A DNA stretch of 64,000 bases from Comamonas sp. BIGb0124. Its GTDB lineage: Bacteria; Pseudomonadota; Gammaproteobacteria; Burkholderiales; Burkholderiaceae_C. A model generated the notes under the pieces. The model ran no database searches and had not been told where the DNA came from. It saw nothing but the letters and a program-made list of their open reading frames with translations. The stretch lies in assembly GCF_003752175.1 (NCBI RefSeq), contig NZ_RJVF01000013.1:310001-374000 (forward strand), read 5' to 3'. This document shows, piece by piece, positions 7,078 to 31,680 of the stretch; position 1 is the first letter of the stretch, and each line of letters begins with the position of its first letter. Position numbers and translations under genes: made by a program.

Positions 7078-8441
7078 GCCTTGGCTCCAGTGGGTGGCGC
7101 CCAGCGCGGCAGGGCCGATTCGAGGTAGTGGATGTCGGTGCCGCCGGCCAGAAATCCGGCGTCGTCCAGAATCGCCTGCTGCAGCGCGACGGTGCTGGCG
7201 ACGCCTTCGACCACGGCCTCGCCCAGTGCGGCACGCATGCGGGCAATGGCCTCGTGGCGGGTACTGCCATGGGCAATGAACTTGGCCATCAGCGAATCGT
7301 AGTAAGGCGGTACGGCGGTGCCGGCATCGACATGCGAATCGACGCGGATGCCGGCACCGCCCGGCACGCGCCACTGCGCCACGCGGCCGGGCGAAGGCAC
7401 GAAGGTCCAGGGATGCTCGGCATTGATGCGGCATTCGATGGCATGGCCGCTGAAGACGATGTCCTCTTGCCGGATGCGCAGCGGCTGGCCCTGGGCAATG
7501 CGCAGTTGCTCGGCCACGATGTCCACGCCGGTCACCATCTCGGTGACGGGGTGTTCGACCTGCACCCGCGTGTTCATCTCGATGAAGTAGAAACCGCCGG
7601 ATTCATAGAGGAACTCGAAGGTGCCGGCCCCGCGGTAACCCATGTCGATGCAGGCGCTGGCGCACAGGCGGCCGATACGGGCGATCTGCTCGCGCGGAAT
7701 GCCGGGGGCCGGCGATTCCTCGAGCACCTTCTGGTGACGACGCTGCATGGAACAGTCGCGTTCGCCCAGCCACACGGCGTGGCCCTGGCCATCGGCCAAT
7801 ACCTGGATCTCGACATGGCGCGGGTGTTCGAGGAATTTTTCGAGATAGACCGAGGCATCGCCAAAGGCCCGCTGCGCTTCCTCGCGGGTGAGCTTGAGTG
7901 CACCGTCCAGGGCTGCGGGCTCGCGCACCACACGCATGCCCCGCCCGCCTCCGCCGGCCGCGGCCTTGGCGATGACGGGGTAGCCGATGACCAGCGCCTG
8001 TTCGGCCGCCTCGGCTTCGCCGCCGGGCCGGATGGCTTCGGTGCCGGGCACGCAAGGCACGCCGGCGGCCAGCATGGCCCGTTTGGCCTCGATCTTGTCG
8101 CCCATCTGGCGGATGGTGCGGGATTCGGGGCCGATGAAGACCAGACCGGCCTGTTCGACCCGTTCGGCAAACGCCGCGTTCTCCGACAGAAAACCGTAGC
8201 CGGGATGGATCGCCCCGGCCCCGGTATGCCATGCGGCGAGGATCAGCTGATCCATGTCGAGATAGCTCTGCGCGGCCGGGGCGGGCCCGATGCACACGGC
8301 CTGGTCGGCCAGGTGCACATGGCGCTGGTCCGCATCGGGCTCGGCGTAGACGGCGACCGTCTTGAGGCCCAGGGTGCGGCAGGCCCGCAGAATGCGCAGG
8401 GCGATCTCGCCCCGGTTGGCGATCAGTACGGTGTCGAACAT
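7074..8441 (-). CDS. Biotin carboxylase subunit (AccC family)
   Basis: A 455-residue ATP-grasp biotin carboxylase that should carboxylate biotin on a carrier protein using ATP and bicarbonate. Visible landmarks are the N-terminal [34 protein letters not shown], the glycine-rich ATP loop [11 protein letters not shown], and [18 protein letters not shown] in the active site. Length and motif order fit AccC. Its ATG overlaps the carrier stop codon by one base. Its own stop overlaps the next start, so translation is probably coupled. Placement among pxp genes suggests a dedicated copy rather than the acetyl-CoA carboxylase subunit. Confidence 0.9.
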
Positions 8442-22215: not shown

Positions 22216-22251
22216 GGCCCGGGAGTTTCAGCTCGCCGGGCCATTCTTTTT
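22216..22251 (+). terminator. Candidate rho-independent terminator
   Basis: Stem GGCCCGG/CCGGGCC (22216-22222 with 22236-22242), a 13-base loop and the T-rich tail ATTCTTTTT. It would end rightward transcription from the 79-residue gene before the kdp promoter. It overlaps the end of the small leftward gene proposed next. Confidence 0.5.
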
Positions 22252-22338
22252 CCGGGTGAAATACCGAAGCGCCTGGACCAAAACAAAAAACACCACCGCG
22301 ACAAATACGATATCCCACACGACGTGCATCATGGCCAT
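22228..22338 (-). CDS. Possible 36-residue single-pass membrane protein, divergent from kdpA
   Basis: On the minus strand ATG 22338 opens 36 codons and ends at TGA 22228. GGAGA lies 5 bases upstream in a good position. The product has one hydrophobic helix (VVWDIVFVAVVFFVLVQAL) followed by a basic tail (RYFTRKKN), the positive-inside layout of small inner-membrane proteins. It is divergent from the kdp operon, with the candidate KdpE operator between them. It is not KdpF by position, since KdpF is encoded just before kdpA on the same strand. A chance frame cannot be excluded at this length. Confidence 0.45.
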   Translation of the reverse strand: MAMMHVVWDIVFVAVVFFVLVQALRYFTRKKNGPAS

Positions 22339-22413
22339 TCTTCTCCGAGACAAGGCCCCACCGGGCGTCCGGAAGGCATGCCGTCATTCTCCTCAAGCGC
22401 CTTGCCGGCCGGC

Positions 22414-22468
22414 GTAAAAAGTGCGTAAAAAACGCGTGCCCTGAAACCACCTTTTACGCACTTTTTAC
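22414..22468. promoter_or_regulatory. Perfect 17-bp inverted repeat, candidate KdpE operator
   Basis: GTAAAAAGTGCGTAAAA (22414-22430) and its exact reverse complement (22452-22468) are separated by 21 bases. Each arm contains two direct TTTTAC-type half-sites 11 bases apart on one strand. This resembles the T-rich, directly repeated site that KdpE binds in E. coli, which is likewise followed by a GC-rich stretch. It lies 147 bases before kdpA and 76 bases before the small divergent gene, so one element could control both. The KdpE assignment is inference from position and sequence type. Confidence 0.6.
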
Positions 22469-22505
22469 GACGCGCCAGCGTCCCCCGCAGCACACTGCCT
22501 CCGCT

Positions 22506-22614: not shown

Positions 22615-24408
22615 ATGCTGCAGTTTATTTTCTTGATGGGGGCGATTCTGTTGCTCTCATGGCCGCTGGGCCGCTATATGGCGGCGGTGATGCGGGGCGG
22701 GCCGATGCGGTCCGATTGTCTGTTCCGATGGATCGAGCAGCCGGCCTACCGGCTGATGGGCGTGCGGCCCGGCTCCGGCATGAGCTGGCGCGGTTACGCC
22801 TTGGCTTTCGGGCTCAGCAACGCCGTGCTGCTGGGCCTGGTCTGGGCGCTCTTCATGCTCCAGGCCGGGCTGCCGCTCAATCCCGACAACGCGCCGGACA
22901 TGCGCTGGGACCTTGCGCTGCACACGGTGATTTCGTTCCTGACCAACACCAACCAGCAGCACTACTCGGGGCAGGCCCAGTTGTCCTACCTCTCGCAGAT
23001 GGTGGGCATCGTGACGCTGCAGTTCCTCACCCCCGTGATGGGCCTGGCCATGGTCGCCGCCACGCTGCGCGCGCTGTTCGGCGGCCGGGCGCGCATGCAG
23101 GCCGACCCGATGCCGGAGAGCGGCACGCGGGACGCGGCCGGCGAGCAGGCCCGCCCCGCCGCAGCGGTCGAGGCCGATGTGGGCAACTACTGGGTCGACG
23201 TGGTGCGCGCCACCGGCCGCATCATGATCCCGCTGGCACTGGTGGGCTCGGTGCTGCTGACCGCGCAAGGCGTGCCGGCGACGCTCGAGGCCGGCCCCAC
23301 CGTCCAGACGCTGGACCCGTCGGCGCAGGTCGGCGCCACACCGGCTGCCGCCCAGAAGATTCCGCTGGGCCCCGTGGCACCCATGGTGGCGATCAAACAA
23401 CTGGGCAGCAACGGCGGCGGCTGGTACGGCCCCAACAGCGCGGTGGCCCTCGAGAATCCGACACCGGCCTCGAATTTTCTCGAGCTGCTGGCCATCGCCC
23501 TGGTCCCGGTCGCCGTGATCATGATGATCGGCCCGTTCACCGGCCGCCGGCGCTTCGGCCTGATGGTGCTGGGCACCATGCTGTGCATGTCGGTCGTCTC
23601 CGCTGCGGCCACGTTGTGGACCGAGTCGTACGCGGCTGCCGGCCAGTCGGTGCTGGCCATGGAGGGCAAGGAGGTACGGCTGGGCGTGGAGAGTTCGGCC
23701 ATTTGGGCCTCGCTGACGACCCAGGTCAACAACGGCTCGGTCAACATGATGCACGACTCTGCGGCCCCGCTGACGGGCCTGACGACCCTGGCCAACATGC
23801 TGATCAACGCGATCTGGGGCGGCGTGGGCTGCGGGCTGCAGCAGTTTCTGGTCTACCTGCTGCTGGCGGTTTTCATTGCAGGCCTGATGACCGGTCGCAC
23901 GCCCGAGCTGTTCGGCCGCAAGATCGAGGCACCCGAGGTGCGGCTGCTGGCAGTGCTGGTGCTGCTGCAGCCATTCGTGGTTCTGGGGCTGACGGCACTG
24001 GCACTGGCCGTGCCGGGACTCGCCGGCAACTCCAATCCGGGCTTTCACGGCATCAGCCAGGTGCTCTACGAGTACACCTCGGCGTTTTCCAACAACGGCT
24101 CGGGCTTCGAGGGCCTGGGCGATGCCACGCCGTGGTGGAACCTGTCCGCATCGGCCGCACTGCTGCTGGGCCGCTACCCCGCCCTGGTGCTGCCGCTGGC
24201 CATCGCCGCGTTGCTGGCACGCAAGCGGCAAGCCCCCGAAGGCCCCGGCACGCTGCACATCGAAACCCCGACGTTTGCGCTCACGCTGATCGGCATCGTG
24301 GTCATCCTGACCCTGCTGCAGTTCATGCCGGTGCTGGCCCTGGGCCCGATCGCCGAACACCTGTCGCTGGCCCATCCGGCCTCGACGCAGCCCTTGGCTC
24401 AACCTTGA
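22615..24408 (+). CDS. kdpA: Potassium-transporting ATPase subunit A (K+-selective pore)
   Basis: A 597-residue, K+-channel-like subunit of the Kdp P-type ATPase. Start ATG 22615 with GGAG at 22604-22607; a GTG one codon earlier is possible. The four selectivity-filter-like repeats are visible: [10 protein letters not shown] (110-119), [24 protein letters not shown] and [12 protein letters not shown]. It is about 40 residues longer than the E. coli protein, mainly in the loop after the third helix (residues ~150-190, Ala/Glu-rich). No kdpF-like frame was found immediately upstream. Confidence 0.97.
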
Positions 24409-24421
24409 GGAGCCCCGAATC

Positions 24422-26461
24422 ATGGAACACAACACTTCCGTCGTCGAACGTCCGGCTGCCCGGCGGGCCGAGCCCTCGCCGTGGGGCAGCGCCCTGCGCG
24501 ACGCCGTGCGCAAACTGTCGCCCCGGCACATGGCCAGGAACCCGGTCATGGCGGTGGTCTGGCTGGGCACGCTGGTCACCGGCGCCGCCACGGCGGCCGG
24601 CCTCGCCACGCCGGGCTTTGGCTGGAGCGTGACCTTCACCTTGCTGGCCACGGTGCTGTTCGGCAACTTCGCCGAGGCGCTGGCCGAATCGCGCGGCCGG
24701 GGCCAGGCGGCTTCGCTCCGCCGCGCCCGCCGCGACCTCATAGCCCGCCGCCGCATCGGGGCCGGACAGGAGGAAAGCGTGTCGGCCGCCCTGCTGCGCC
24801 CCGGCGACGAAGTGCTCGTCGACGCCGGCGAGACCATTCCCGCCGACGGCGAGATCGTCGAAGGACTGGCCAGCATCAACGAATCGGCCGTCACCGGCGA
24901 ATCGGCCCCCGTGCTGCGCGAGGCCGGCACCGACCGCTCGGGCGTCATCGGCGGCACCCAGGTGCTGTCCGACCGCATCGTGGTGCGGGTGACGGCCGAG
25001 CCGGGACAGAGTTTCCTCGATCGCATGATCGCGCTGGTCGAAGGCTCGAACCGGCAGAAGACGCCCAACGAGATCGCGCTGGGCCTGCTGTTGATGGTCA
25101 TGACGGCGACCTTCCTCATCGTGGTGGTGACGCTGCCTTTCATCGGCGCCTTTGTCGGCGTGAAGGTGAACGTGGTGATTCTGGTGGCGCTGCTGGTCTG
25201 CCTGATCCCGACGACCATCGGCGGACTGCTGCCGGCCATCGGCATCGCCGGCATGAACCGGGCGCTGCAGGCCAACGTGCTGGCCAAGTCGGGCAAGGCG
25301 GTCGAGGTCGCAGGCGACATCGACGTGCTGCTGCTCGACAAGACGGGCACCATCACCCATGGCGACCGTCAGGCCACGGCCTTCCATGCCCTGCCCGGCG
25401 TGGACCCGGCCATGCTGGCGCAGGCCGCGCTGCTGTCGTCGCTGGCCGACCCCACGCCCGAGGGCAAGTCCATCGTGCGGCTGGCCCGTGAACAGGGGCA
25501 TGACCTGCAGGAGCCGGCCGGGGCCGACTTCGTGCCGTTCACGGCGGCCACGCGCATGTCGGGCGTCGACCTGGCCGGCGGCGAGGCCATCCGCAAGGGC
25601 TCGGTCGATGCCATGACCGACTGGCTCGCCGCGCAGGGCATCGCGGTGCCCGCCGATCTGCGCGCCTGCGCCGACCGGGTGGCGCGCCAGGGCGCAACGC
25701 CGCTGGTGGTGGCGCGCAACCGGCAGGCGCTCGGGGTGGTCGAGCTCTCGGACGTGGTCAAGCACGGCATCCGTGAACGTTTTGCACGGCTGCGCGAAAT
25801 GGGCGTGAGGACGGTGATGATCACGGGCGACAACCCGCTCACGGCAGCGGCCATTGCGGCCGACGCCGGTGTCGACGACTTCGTCGCGCAGGCCCGCCCC
25901 GAAGACAAGCTGGCCCGCATCCGCGCCGAGCAGGCCGGCGGGCGGCTGGTGGCCATGGTGGGCGACGGCACCAACGACGCGCCCGCGCTGGCCCAGGCCG
26001 ACGTGGGGCTGGCCATGAACACCGGCACGCAGGCCGCCAAGGAGGCGGGCAACATGGTGGATCTCGACAGCGATCCGGCCAAGCTGCTGGCGGTGGTCGA
26101 GATCGGCAAGCAGCAGCTCATCACGCGCGGCGCGCTGACCACGTTCTCGCTGGCCAACGACGTCTCGAAGTACTTCGCCATCCTGCCGGCGCTGTTCGCC
26201 GCCGCGATTCCGCAGATGGCGGCGCTCAATGTGATGCAGTTGCACAGTCCGGCCAGCGCCGTCATGGCCGCACTGGTCTTCAATGCCCTCGTCATCCCGC
26301 TGCTGATTCCGCTGGCGTTGCGCGGCGTGCGCTTCAAGCCGGCCTCGGCCACCGCACTGCTGCGCAACAACATGCTGGTCTACGGCGTGGGCGGCGTGCT
26401 GCTGCCCTTCGTTGCCATCAAGCTGCTCGACATGGCGCTGGTGGCGCTGTTCGGTCTCTGA
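24422..26461 (+). CDS. kdpB: Potassium-transporting ATPase subunit B (P-type ATPase)
   Basis: The 679-residue catalytic subunit that hydrolyses ATP to drive K+ uptake. It has the actuator motif [11 protein letters not shown], the phosphorylated aspartate Asp306 in DKTGTITHG, and the hinge [20 protein letters not shown] polar 30-residue N-terminal tail precedes the first helix, and the C-terminal helices end in [20 protein letters not shown]. It lies 13 bases after kdpA. Confidence 0.97.
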
Positions 26462-26487: not shown

Positions 26488-27189
26488 ATGACTCTGCCGA
26501 TTTCAAAGACGATCCCGATGCCCGAGGCACTGTCCTCGGTGCAACCCACGACCCCGCCCGCGACCGCCCCGTCTGCCCCGGGCCTGCACGACGGCGGTGC
26601 CCTGCGTGCCTCTGCCGTGCTGGCCGTGCTGTCGCTGGCCCTGATCGGCCTGGGCTACAACCTGGCCGGTGTCGGCCTGGGCCAGTGGCTGTTCCCGCAC
26701 CAGGCCAACGGCAGCCTGGTGCAGGCCGCCGACGGCCGGGTGATCGGGTCGGCCCTGGTGGCCCAGCCTTTTGCCGATGCGCGTTATTTCATGCCCCGCC
26801 CATCGGCCGCAGCCTTCGACCCGATGGCGGCGGCGGGCAGCAACCAGGCCCGCAGCAACCCCGACCTGCCGGCGCGTGTGCAACTGGAGACCGACACCGT
26901 GGCCCGGCGCGAGAACATCGCCCCCGCTCAGGTGCCGCGCGATCTGGTCACTCAGTCCGGAAGCGGCCTGGACCCGCACATCGGCCCCGAAGCCGCCGAG
27001 ATCCAGGTCGAACGTGTGGCCCGCGCCCGCGCCGTGCCGCCGGCGCGGATCCGCGAGCTGCTTGCGCAGCACATCGAACGGCCCTGGCCGCTCTCGCCGG
27101 GCGCGGCACGCGTCAACGTGCTGTTGCTCAACGCGGCGCTCGACCAGCACCTGGCACCCTCGCCTTCTGCGGCCGGCGCGAGCCGGTGA
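26488..27189 (+). CDS. kdpC: Potassium-transporting ATPase subunit C
   Basis: A 233-residue KdpC, the periplasmic-facing subunit that stabilises the complex and raises K+ affinity. A Pro-rich ~35-residue N-terminal extension comes before the single membrane helix (VLAVLSLALIGLGYNLAGVG). The conserved segments are VIGSALVAQPFADARYFMPR, SNQARSNPDLPARV, and DLVTQSGSGLDPHIGPEAAE, with VNVLLLNAALD at the end. E. coli KdpC is about 190 residues, so both ends are longer here. Confidence 0.95.
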   Translation: MTLPISKTIPMPEALSSVQPTTPPATAPSAPGLHDGGALRASAVLAVLSLALIGLGYNLAGVGLGQWLFPHQANGSLVQAADGRVIGSALVAQPFADARYFMPRPSAAAFDPMAAAGSNQARSNPDLPARVQLETDTVARRENIAPAQVPRDLVTQSGSGLDPHIGPEAAEIQVERVARARAVPPARIRELLAQHIERPWPLSPGAARVNVLLLNAALDQHLAPSPSAAGASR

Positions 27190-27196
27190 GCCAGAC

Positions 27197-27700
27197 ATGA
27201 ATCCAGACATCCGCCATTTCCTGGCACCCGAAGATGTGCTGCTCGACATCGACGCACCGCACTTCGATGCCTTGCTCGGTGTGCTCGGGGCACACATCGA
27301 ATCCCGCCACGGCGTCGCGGCACAGCACGGCCACGCCATCCTGGCCCGTCGCGAAGCCCTGTCGTCCACTGCCATCGGCGCCGGGGTGGCGATTCCTCAC
27401 GCACGGCTCGACGGACTCGCCCGATCCAGCGCGATCTACGCGCGGCTGACCCGACCGCTGCCGACTTCGAGCTACGCCACGCCCGACGGCATCGCGCTGC
27501 GCCATGCGATGGTGCTGCTGGTGCCGCAACCCAAGAATCAGCAGCACCTCGACTTGCTGGCCACCATCTGCCGGCTGTTTTCCAGCCGTCGGCTGCCCGA
27601 CGCCCTGCTCGCCTGCAACGGCCCCGCCCAGGTCCTGGCCTTGCTCGGCCACTGGCATGTCCAGTCCGATCCATTCTTACTCGGGGGGACCATGCCATGA
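27197..27700 (+). CDS. PtsN-like EIIA protein encoded inside the kdp operon
   Basis: A 167-residue PTS EIIA domain of the nitrogen-type (PtsN) family. The phosphorylatable histidine is His68 in GAGVAIPHARL, matching the active-site context of PtsN. The start at 27197 is 7 bases after kdpC. In E. coli, unphosphorylated PtsN binds KdpD and raises kdp expression and also inhibits TrkA, so a dedicated copy here probably links PTS phosphorylation to potassium control. This role is inferred from location. The last ~15 residues (VQSDPFLLGGTMP) extend beyond the family core. Confidence 0.85.
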   Translation: MNPDIRHFLAPEDVLLDIDAPHFDALLGVLGAHIESRHGVAAQHGHAILARREALSSTAIGAGVAIPHARLDGLARSSAIYARLTRPLPTSSYATPDGIALRHAMVLLVPQPKNQQHLDLLATICRLFSSRRLPDALLACNGPAQVLALLGHWHVQSDPFLLGGTMP

Positions 27701-28005: not shown

Positions 28006-28217
28006 AGCCCGAGCGAGCCCCCGGCAGCCCGTTCGAGATCCATGCCTGTCCGGTCTGCGGTCTGCGCCATGCCGTGCATCCGGTGCTGCACGCGCTGGCC
28101 TACGGTCGCCAGTTGACGTGTTCGCCGGGCTGCAAGCTGGCCTGGCGGCATGCGCTGCTGCGCGGCACCACTACACTGTCTCCACCCTCCGTACCCCGCC
28201 GCATCCGCCATGACTGA
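28002..28217 (+). CDS. Small four-cysteine (zinc-ribbon-like) protein of the kdp operon
   Basis: A 71-residue frame starting at TTG 28002, overlapping the previous stop as TTGA and preceded by GGAG at 27992-27995 with 6-base spacing. It ends inside kdpD (8-base overlap). It contains CPVCG (Cys16, Cys19) and CSPGC (Cys40, Cys44), a C-x2-C...C-x3-C arrangement likely to hold one zinc ion, plus His and basic residues nearby. The tight overlaps on both sides and the Shine-Dalgarno support a real gene despite the unusual start codon. Function unknown. Confidence 0.6.
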   Translation: MKPERAPGSPFEIHACPVCGLRHAVHPVLHALAYGRQLTCSPGCKLAWRHALLRGTTTLSPPSVPRRIRHD

Positions 28218-30951
28218 CGACAATCCAGACAAGCGCCAGCAGGCCGATGCCCTGGTCGAGGAACTGCAGCGCGAATCGGCCGGCCGCCTCACCGTGTTTC
28301 TGGGCGCGGCACCCGGCGTGGGCAAGACCTACGCCATGCTGGTGCGCGCCCACGAACTTCGCCGGCAGGGCCGCGACATCGCGGTCGGCATCGTCGAGAC
28401 CCATGGCCGGGAAGACACGGCACGGCAGCTCCAGGGACTGGAGGTGGTCGCGCGCCGGACGCTCTTGCACAAGGGCCGCACGCTCGAGGAAATGGATCTC
28501 GATGCGGTGCTGGCGCGGCGCCCCGCCATCGTGCTGGTCGACGAGTTGGCGCATCGCAACATGCCCGGCAGCCGGCACGAACGGCGCTGGCAGGACGTTG
28601 AGGAACTGCTCGACGCCGGCATCGATGTCTACACCACCGTGAATGTGCAGCACCTCGAGAGCCTCAACGACGTGGTGTTCCAGATCACCGGCGTGCGGGT
28701 CGCCGAGACCGTGCCCGACAAGGTCCTCGACCGGCTGCGCGACATCCGCCTGGTCGACCTGCCCGCCCGTGAGCTCATCGAGCGGCTCAATCAAGGCAAG
28801 GTCTACGTCCCCGAGGCGGCCGAGCGGGCGCTGGCGAGCTTCTTTTCACCGAGCAATCTCACCGCCCTGCGCGAGCTGGCCATGCAGACGGTGGCCAGCC
28901 ATGTGGACGCCGATCTGCGCGAGCACAACGCCGCGCGAGGCCAACGCACGGTCGCGGGCATCCGCCGGCACGTGCTGATTGCCATCGACGGCCATGGCCA
29001 GTCGCAGGATCTCGTGCGTGCCGGCAGCCGCATGGCCGAGCGGCGCGGCGCCACCTGGTCGGTGGTGGCCGTGCAGCGGGCACACGCAGGCGCAGCCGAG
29101 CGGGCCGGGCCCGGCATACCCGGAAAGGGCATCGACCGCCGGCAGGTCCAGCGCGTCCTGGAAATCGACCGCGCCTTTGCCCTGGCCCGCAGGCTGGGCG
29201 GCGACACCGCGCTGCTGCACGGAGACGATATCGCCTCGGCCCTGCTCGACGCGGCACAGGCCCATGGTGCCACCGCCATCGTGCTGGGCCGAACCCGCGT
29301 GCGGCCGGTCGCCCGCCTGTTCAACCGCACCATCAGCCAGCAGTTGCTGCGCCGCGGTGCCCAGTACGAAATCACCATCATCGGCTCGGCCGCCCATCCG
29401 CCACGCAGCCGGCATGCGCCGGTGCTGCCGCGTCTGCCATCGGGCTGGGCCGATCTCGGGATCGTGCTGCCCTACACCGCCGGCGCCATCCTGACGGCTT
29501 GGCTGGCCGACCGGCTGCTGGGCCTGCAGGACGTGTCGATGATCTTCATGCTGGCCGTGCTGATGGTGGGTGCGCGCAGCCGCATGGCCGGCGCGGTGAT
29601 CACGGCGCTGCTGTGTTTCAGTGCCTACGATTTCCTGTTCATCGAGCCCCGGCTGACCTTCCACATCGCTGCCAATCAAGGCGTGGCGACGGTCGGGTTG
29701 TTCCTGGCCGCCGCGCTGATCGCCGGCCAGTTGGCATCGCGGTTGCGCGCGCAGGTGCTGGCGCTGCGGGCCGCCAACTCGCATGCCACGCTGATCCAGG
29801 ACCTGGCCCGCAAGCTCTCGATTGCCGCCGACCTGGGCCAGGTGCTGCAGGTCGGGCGTGGCGCCATGCAAGAAGCGCTGGGTGCCATGGCTTGGATCGC
29901 CTACGACGGCATCGACGTGCCGCCCAGCGCGGGCGAAGCCCCGGGCGCCAAGGACCAGGGCGCCATGGCGTGGACGCGCCGCCATGGCCAGCCCAGCGGG
30001 CGCTACACCGACACCCTGTCGTCCTCCTCCTGGTGGTTTCTGCCCATCAACGCGGGCGAGGATTCCAGCGGCGTCGTCGGTCTGCGTTTTGCGGCCGGTG
30101 TGCGCAGCCTGTCCATCGAGCAGCGCCGGCTGGCCGAATCGATGGCCGAGGACATCGGGCAGGCGGCGCTGCGCACCACGCTGGTCTCCGACCTCGAAGC
30201 CGCACGGGTGGCTGGCGAGACCGAGCGCCTGCGCACGGCGCTGCTGAGCTCGGTTTCGCACGATCTGCGTTCGCCTCTGGCCTCGATGATCGGTGCGGCC
30301 GACAGTCTGGCGGCCTACGCGGACGACATGAGCCGCGAGGACCGCGCCGCCCTGCTCGCCTCCATCACCCAGGAGGGCCAGCGGCTGGACCGCTACATCC
30401 AGAATCTGCTGGACATGACGCGCCTGGGCCAGCAGGGCCTCAAGCTCGAACGCGACTGGATCGGCGTGGACGAACTGATCGCCTCGGCCACGCGCCGCCT
30501 GCAGCGCTACGTGCCGCAGCTGAGCTTCGAGATCGACCTGCCGCCCGACCTGCCGGCACTGCACGTGCATCCGGCACTGATCGAGCAGGCGCTGTTCAAC
30601 GTGCTGGAGAATGCCGCGAAGTTCTCGCCTCCCGGCGCACCGGTGCGCATCGTGGCCCGGGCCGATGCGGCGGCAGGCCTGTCGCTGGACATCGTCGATC
30701 GCGGCCCGGGCATTCCGGCCGACGAACGCCGCCGGGTCTTCGACATGTTCTACAGTGTGGAACGGGGCGACCGCGGCGGCCAGGGCACGGGATTGGGCCT
30801 GGCCATCGTGCAAGCCATCGTCGGCGCCCACATGGGCCGCACCGAGGCCTATGCCGGGCCGGACGGCCAGGGCACCCTGGTGCGCATCACGCTGCCGCCC
30901 GATGTGCTGCGGCGCGAAGCCGATCCGCCCCATGCGCTCGATTCCCTCTAG
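28210..30951 (+). CDS. kdpD: Sensor histidine kinase KdpD
   Basis: A 913-residue osmosensitive K+ sensor. Order of parts: KdpD N-terminal domain with Walker A GAAPGVGKT (32-40) and MPGSRHERRWQDVEELLDAG; a universal-stress-protein-like domain; four membrane helices (from LPYTAGAILTAWLADRLLG to VATVGLFLAAALIAGQLA); a GAF-like region; a HisKA domain with the autophosphorylated His684 in SSVSHDLRSP; and a HATPase with NVLENAAKFSP and GTGLGLAIVQAIV. It phosphorylates KdpE when K+ is limiting. Start ATG 28210 is supported by homologous N-termini. The upstream extension of the frame is not used. Confidence 0.96.
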   Translation: MTDDNPDKRQQADALVEELQRESAGRLTVFLGAAPGVGKTYAMLVRAHELRRQGRDIAVGIVETHGREDTARQLQGLEVVARRTLLHKGRTLEEMDLDAVLARRPAIVLVDELAHRNMPGSRHERRWQDVEELLDAGIDVYTTVNVQHLESLNDVVFQITGVRVAETVPDKVLDRLRDIRLVDLPARELIERLNQGKVYVPEAAERALASFFSPSNLTALRELAMQTVASHVDADLREHNAARGQRTVAGIRRHVLIAIDGHGQSQDLVRAGSRMAERRGATWSVVAVQRAHAGAAERAGPGIPGKGIDRRQVQRVLEIDRAFALARRLGGDTALLHGDDIASALLDAAQAHGATAIVLGRTRVRPVARLFNRTISQQLLRRGAQYEITIIGSAAHPPRSRHAPVLPRLPSGWADLGIVLPYTAGAILTAWLADRLLGLQDVSMIFMLAVLMVGARSRMAGAVITALLCFSAYDFLFIEPRLTFHIAANQGVATVGLFLAAALIAGQLASRLRAQVLALRAANSHATLIQDLARKLSIAADLGQVLQVGRGAMQEALGAMAWIAYDGIDVPPSAGEAPGAKDQGAMAWTRRHGQPSGRYTDTLSSSSWWFLPINAGEDSSGVVGLRFAAGVRSLSIEQRRLAESMAEDIGQAALRTTLVSDLEAARVAGETERLRTALLSSVSHDLRSPLASMIGAADSLAAYADDMSREDRAALLASITQEGQRLDRYIQNLLDMTRLGQQGLKLERDWIGVDELIASATRRLQRYVPQLSFEIDLPPDLPALHVHPALIEQALFNVLENAAKFSPPGAPVRIVARADAAAGLSLDIVDRGPGIPADERRRVFDMFYSVERGDRGGQGTGLGLAIVQAIVGAHMGRTEAYAGPDGQGTLVRITLPPDVLRREADPPHALDSL

Positions 30952-30981: not shown

Positions 30982-31680
30982 ATGACGTCCGCCCGCATTC
31001 TCGTGATCGACGACGAACCTGAAATCCGCAAGTTCCTGGAGATCAGCCTGCGCTCGCAGGGCTATGCCGTCACCCTGGCGCCGACCGCGCGCGCGGGCCT
31101 GGCCGAGTTCTCGGCCCTGCACCCCGACCTCGTCGTGCTCGATCTGGGCTTGCCCGATCTCGACGGTGCCGAAGTGCTGGAGCGGCTGCGCGCGGTCTCC
31201 GAGGTGCCGGTGATCGTGCTGACGGTGCGGTCCGGCGAGACCCAGAAAGTCGCACTGCTCGACGCCGGGGCCAACGACTACGTCACCAAGCCCTTCGGCA
31301 TCCAGGAGCTGATGGCGCGCATCCGGCTGGCGCTGCGGCAACGTGCACGCCCCCAGGACGAGGCCGTCACGGTGTTCGACGACGGCGTGCTGCACATCGA
31401 CCTGGTCCGCCATAGCGTGACGCTGCGCGGCCAGACACTGGCCCTGACCCGCAAGGAATTCGCCGTGCTGGATCTGCTCGCGCGCACGCCCGGCCAACTG
31501 GTGAGCCAGAAACGCCTGCTGCGGGAAGTCTGGGGGCCGTCGCACGAGGACGATGCCCACTACCTGCGCATCGTCGTCGCGCGGCTGCGCAAGAAACTCG
31601 AGGACGACGCACTCTCGCCGCGTTACCTCGTCACCGAGCCCGGTGTGGGCATCCGTTTCGGATGGGGCACCGAGGGCTGA
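30982..31680 (+). CDS. kdpE: Response regulator KdpE
   Basis: A 232-residue OmpR-type regulator. The receiver domain has the acidic pair DDE at 10-12, phosphoacceptor Asp54 in LDLGLPDLDG and the conserved lysine in DYVTKPFG. The C-terminal winged helix contains LTRKEFAVLDLLARTPGQLV and HYLRIVVARLRKKLE. It should activate kdpA transcription from the operator proposed at 22414-22468. It lies 30 bases after kdpD and converges with dxs. Confidence 0.96.
   Translation: MTSARILVIDDEPEIRKFLEISLRSQGYAVTLAPTARAGLAEFSALHPDLVVLDLGLPDLDGAEVLERLRAVSEVPVIVLTVRSGETQKVALLDAGANDYVTKPFGIQELMARIRLALRQRARPQDEAVTVFDDGVLHIDLVRHSVTLRGQTLALTRKEFAVLDLLARTPGQLVSQKRLLREVWGPSHEDDAHYLRIVVARLRKKLEDDALSPRYLVTEPGVGIRFGWGTEG

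Follow-up and report, generated by a model that had tools for sequence, protein, structure and literature searches.

The window analysed here, a stretch of 64,000 nucleotides of Comamonas sp. BIGb0124 DNA, contains kdpA, kdpB and kdpC, followed on the same strand by genes for a KdpD-like sensor kinase and a KdpE-like response regulator (Table 1). The KdpE-like product is 46% identical to KdpE of E. coli, and the three DNA contacts examined in the E. coli protein, R193, R200 and T215, are kept. Between kdpC and kdpD, at about 27190-27700 (+), a PTS EIIA-2 domain protein is encoded (PF00359, E = 2.4e-18), which possibly ties phosphotransferase state to Kdp control. ORF inspection found no kdpF-like ORF upstream of kdpA in the window. 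A perfect inverted repeat precedes kdpA, and beyond it, on the minus strand, lies an unannotated ORF whose translation has one strong hydrophobic segment.

Table 1. Coordinates of the features discussed (window positions, unless another locus is named)
Feature	Position	Strand	Remarks
Unannotated small ORF, 36 aa, predicted single-pass membrane protein MAMMHVVWDIVFVAVVFFVLVQALRYFTRKKNGPAS	22228..22338	-	translation
Predicted -10 GAGAAT	22386..22391	-	21 bp downstream of minus box
Predicted KdpE box facing small divergent gene	22413..22430	-	identical sequence, opposite strand
Spacer between the two boxes	22431..22451		21 bp
Predicted KdpE box facing kdpA	22452..22469	+	exact TTTACG-N5-TTTACG (TTTTACGCACTTTTTACG)
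Predicted -10 CACACT, kdpA promoter	22491..22496	+	21 bp downstream of plus box
kdpA	22615..24408	+	TIGR00680 E=2e-158; PF03814 2.5e-203
kdpB	24422..26461	+	TIGR01497 E=1e-284
kdpC	26488..27189	+	NF001454 / TIGR00681 above cut-off
kdpD-like sensor kinase	28207..30951	+	best NCBIfam KdpD PRK10490 E=1.5e-188, below model cut-off
kdpE-like response regulator	30982..31680	+	best NCBIfam KdpE PRK10529 E=1.9e-64, below cut-off
GNAT/RimK-like neighbours of small gene	L169:5095-7338, L168:3827-6614

The inverted repeat upstream of kdpA

A repeat search confirmed the exact inverted repeat and the 21-bp gap described in the sequence-only reading, but the perfect arms are 18 bp long and not 17 bp, and they grow to 21 bp if one mismatch is allowed. 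Among perfect inverted repeats with a gap of up to 60 bp, this is the longest in the window (the runner-up has 15-bp arms), and when the window was simulated six times with a first-order Markov model, no arm exceeded 13 bp. Elsewhere in the window, at 7314-7361, there is a GC-rich perfect inverted repeat with 15-bp arms and an 18-bp gap.

Both arms carry TTTTACGCACTTTTTACG, that is, TTTACG-CACTT-TTTACG, in which the half-site TTTACG recurs with an 11-bp period. The KdpE site of E. coli is TTTATA-N5-TTTACA (PMC3264566). The arms thus match a KdpE box in half-site and period, and also in lying upstream of kdpA, and the earlier description of doubled, KdpE-like half-sites holds. Only two exact copies of TTTACG-N5-TTTACG exist in the 4.96-Mb genome, both of them in this repeat. 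Sites with one mismatch are about as numerous genome-wide as those of the control pattern, and the idea that KdpE controls further genes here was rejected, near-matches to the box being at or below the control level.

In a sample of 80 named kdpA loci and 16 genomes of the family, a box in the plus orientation was recognized upstream of kdpA in most Burkholderiales, many Acinetobacter and some Stenotrophomonas, with the consensus (A/T)TTTACG-N4-(A/T)TTTACG; at up to one mismatch, 151 kb of kdpA coding DNA gave no match to this consensus. One box is therefore the norm, and a second, opposing box the exception. Strictly mirrored boxes with a gap of 14-44 bp were found in this genome alone among 399 genomes of the order scanned, so the tight symmetry is not a conserved trait. 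The N5 spacers are identical in the two arms of the window, whereas those of the relatives differ; the match could have arisen if one box was recently converted or duplicated in inverted orientation, although this is a guess.

A predicted small membrane protein gene beside kdp

The sequence-only reading held that the mirrored site suits a divergent pair. This proved apt, the partner being the small ORF, which that reading did not name. Homologues divergent from kdpA were found at nine Burkholderiales loci: the window, its sister species (L026), Pseudorhodoferax (L055 and L060), Ottowia thiooxydans (L058), Acidovorax (L054), a Burkholderiaceae metagenome-assembled genome (L059) and two further genomes (L025 and L137). 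The family alignment begins at Met3 of the window ORF (22332), and a motif before the helix, M-x-Q-x-x-Q-D-x-x-F, is present in most members, with the Met and the Asp invariant. Profile A2 matched the window ORF with E = 2.2e-12, its sole match in that genome at E <= 1e-4. Differences at the three codon positions of the small ORF number 145/93/229, and this third-position excess suggests constraint at the level of the protein; in the close Pseudorhodoferax pair, five changes were counted, too few for the codon analysis to be informative. Another short hydrophobic ORF in that genus (L055:2310-2570, minus strand) overlaps the divergent small gene at its end.

A profile built from the nine members and run on 398 genomes of the family gave matches in 11, ten of them beside kdp genes and six divergent from a kdpA of the window's clade. 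In G623 and G646, the small gene is divergent from a porin-kdpA unit with a KdpA of another clade, and opposed boxes are present; in G192 and G775, it lies on the same strand directly before kdpA, and in G775 a KdpF-like ORF precedes it, so both genes co-exist there. In G530, the small gene has opposed boxes, and no kdp genes were recognized within 18 kb. No additional members were found in 369 sampled genomes of the class. In G623/G646 and G530, the small gene is followed on the same strand by genes for a GNAT acetyltransferase and a RimK-like ATP-grasp protein (RLAN and RimK domains). The kdp gene order of G623, read from ORFs by eye, is kdpA-kdpC-kdpB rather than kdpA-kdpB-kdpC (L169:1-3657). 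Between the KdpE box and kdpA, a gene for a TorF/Gcw_chp-type outer-membrane porin is found at L054:1261-1965 and L169:3919-4617, so that low K+ may induce the porin as well.

None of the members scanned matched a Pfam or NCBIfam family above cut-off. The KdpF family PF09604 was unmatched by three small-protein members, although KdpF scanned alongside them was matched. Like KdpF, the small protein is a predicted single-pass membrane peptide with a genetic tie to KdpABC; unlike KdpF, it has no PF09604 match. A likeness is also seen in an unnamed peptide of 27-42 aa, beginning MDxx(F/W), that is encoded beside kdpF in many kdp operons of Burkholderiales (just before or after kdpF in L029, L030, L031, L032, L041, L045, L046, L050 and L051). 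It is likewise short, with one membrane helix and an invariant N-terminal Asp, and its gene adjoins kdpF or kdpA, but on the kdp strand, whereas the small gene is divergent. Comparison of the two profiles gave E = 1.5e-4, or 1.1e-5 with the bridging sequence of G192, which is suggestive of homology between the two peptides, although it is not proof. In the open-access literature, we found neither this small protein nor paired KdpE boxes described.

Boxes and predicted promoters among the relatives

The presence of the opposing box was compared with that of the small gene at 30 deduplicated kdpA loci of the clade, nine with the small gene and 21 without. At up to three mismatches, the opposing box was found in 9/9 of the former and 2/21 of the latter; at up to one mismatch, in 6/9 and 0/21, respectively. 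Fisher p-values range from 1e-4 to about 4e-6 (the latter at up to three mismatches, with the loci counted as independent) and are nominal because the loci are related. The minus boxes of the two Pseudorhodoferax loci have three mismatches each. In contrast to the opposing box, the plus box is common to both groups, in 9/9 small-gene loci at up to three mismatches and, among the others, in 18/21 at up to two and 20/21 at up to three. At L025 and L137, the small gene was recognized first, from the protein profile, and an opposing box with one mismatch was then seen at each; the prediction was thus borne out.

Downstream of the minus box, a sequence of the form xAxxxT, which is the core of a -10 element, begins exactly 21 bp past the box at all nine loci, the next best offset being shared by three; the letters in common are A (+22) and T (+26). 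When eight loci were shuffled 100,000 times, no offset exceeded 5/8. The same offset holds on the plus side of the sister species, with a CACACT identical to that of the window, and in G623 and G646, where TATAGT stands 21 bp from the box in spite of the different KdpA clade; in G530, a -10-like sequence stands at offset 20. Plus-side promoters of the relatives are of two sorts, one with AATACT 21 bp after the box and one with AATACT about 43 bp past it, GAATGGAGA-TTTACGG intervening. The predicted -10 elements match TATAAT poorly, and a scan with the sigma-70 consensus found no promoter, a result to be expected only where activation takes the place of the -35 element. With 21 bp from its end to the -10 element, the box overlaps the -35 position, an arrangement that suits an activator of the OmpR/PhoB family.

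From start to start, the two boxes are 39 bp apart in the window and in its sister species, and 59, 59, 70, 96, 117, 119 and 127 bp apart at the other seven loci. In the sister species, both boxes and both -10 elements are retained while the symmetry is lost. What the relatives retain is one box for each predicted promoter. Conservation of the repeat upstream of related kdp operons, which the sequence-only reading had made the touchstone of its proposal, thus applies to the two opposed boxes and not to the repeat as such.

These results bear on a reading in which the palindrome is a composite operator, two KdpE dimers in contact working as a unit (a switch or a loop) on kdpA only, with the small ORF spurious. 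The perfect symmetry, extending even into 5-bp spacers that KdpE should not read, and the 39-bp spacing shared by the sister species are what such an operator might show. However, the wide range of spacings at the seven other loci, the broken symmetry of the sister species, and a minus box that tracks the small gene with its -10 element conserved at 21 bp make it unlikely. The earlier notion of one special mirrored operator was not upheld: perfect symmetry was seen in this genome only, and the boxes of relatives persist independently at different spacings. Less probable still is that the minus box is a functionless remnant of an inverted duplication, for example by gene conversion; the identical N5 spacers of the window arms would fit this, but several genera have opposing boxes of independent sequence, together with the conserved -10 spacing and the small gene. 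We give the least weight of all to an RNA hairpin (terminator, attenuator or leader structure common to both strands). A stem of 18 bp could form from the arms, with z about -5.6 for each strand, but it is gone from the sister species together with the symmetry (z +0.7), even though boxes and -10 elements are kept there. There is no terminator-like or Rfam match at the repeat, and the predicted start sites, near 22379 (minus) and 22503 (plus), lie outside it, so that neither transcript would contain it.

Proposed divergent promoters and a putative Kdp companion

We consider it probable (roughly 0.8) that the repeat consists of two back-to-back KdpE boxes, from which phosphorylated KdpE activates kdpABC and a Kdp-companion peptide from divergent promoters. 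When K+ is limiting, the KdpE of this kdp cluster would be phosphorylated and would occupy each box as a head-to-tail dimer; either box would overlap the -35 position of the promoter that it serves. The plus box would activate kdpABC and probably the downstream kdpDE genes too, whereas the minus box would activate a monocistronic gene for the 36-aa single-pass membrane protein. If translated, this protein would be the counterpart of a companion peptide that other genomes encode within the kdp operon or adjoining it, and may act on the pump as a stabiliser or modulator, as KdpF does.

The regulator and its box are known; the divergent arrangement and the target are new. In E. coli, kdpFABC is likewise preceded by two 6-bp direct half-sites 11 bp apart, and the kdpF-ybfA intergenic region likewise divides kdp from a small divergent gene. 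However, the single box of E. coli is oriented towards kdpF, and an opposing box is absent from the intergenic region at up to two mismatches; ybfA (DUF2517, 68 aa) and the small gene of the window also encode different proteins by annotation.

More tentatively, and with somewhat more doubt than confidence, we suggest that, in many proteobacteria, KdpF may not be the only small membrane protein of the Kdp system, and that a second, unrecognised one may serve either the pump or KdpD as subunit or modulator. Usually its gene would share a transcript with the neighbouring kdpF, but in some Burkholderiales it would stand apart as a divergent unit under a KdpE box of its own. Such a peptide is easily missed because genes so short are often unannotated.

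In E. coli, KdpE is considered to control hardly more than one target (PMC8249747, PMC7657598). The box pattern described here predicts a second, conserved KdpE target, a membrane peptide without a Pfam or NCBIfam family name, and the fixed distance from box to -10 element would provide a simple promoter rule for KdpE in Burkholderiales. If the peptide joins or modulates KdpABC, it would be an overlooked component of a pump that has been studied for decades.
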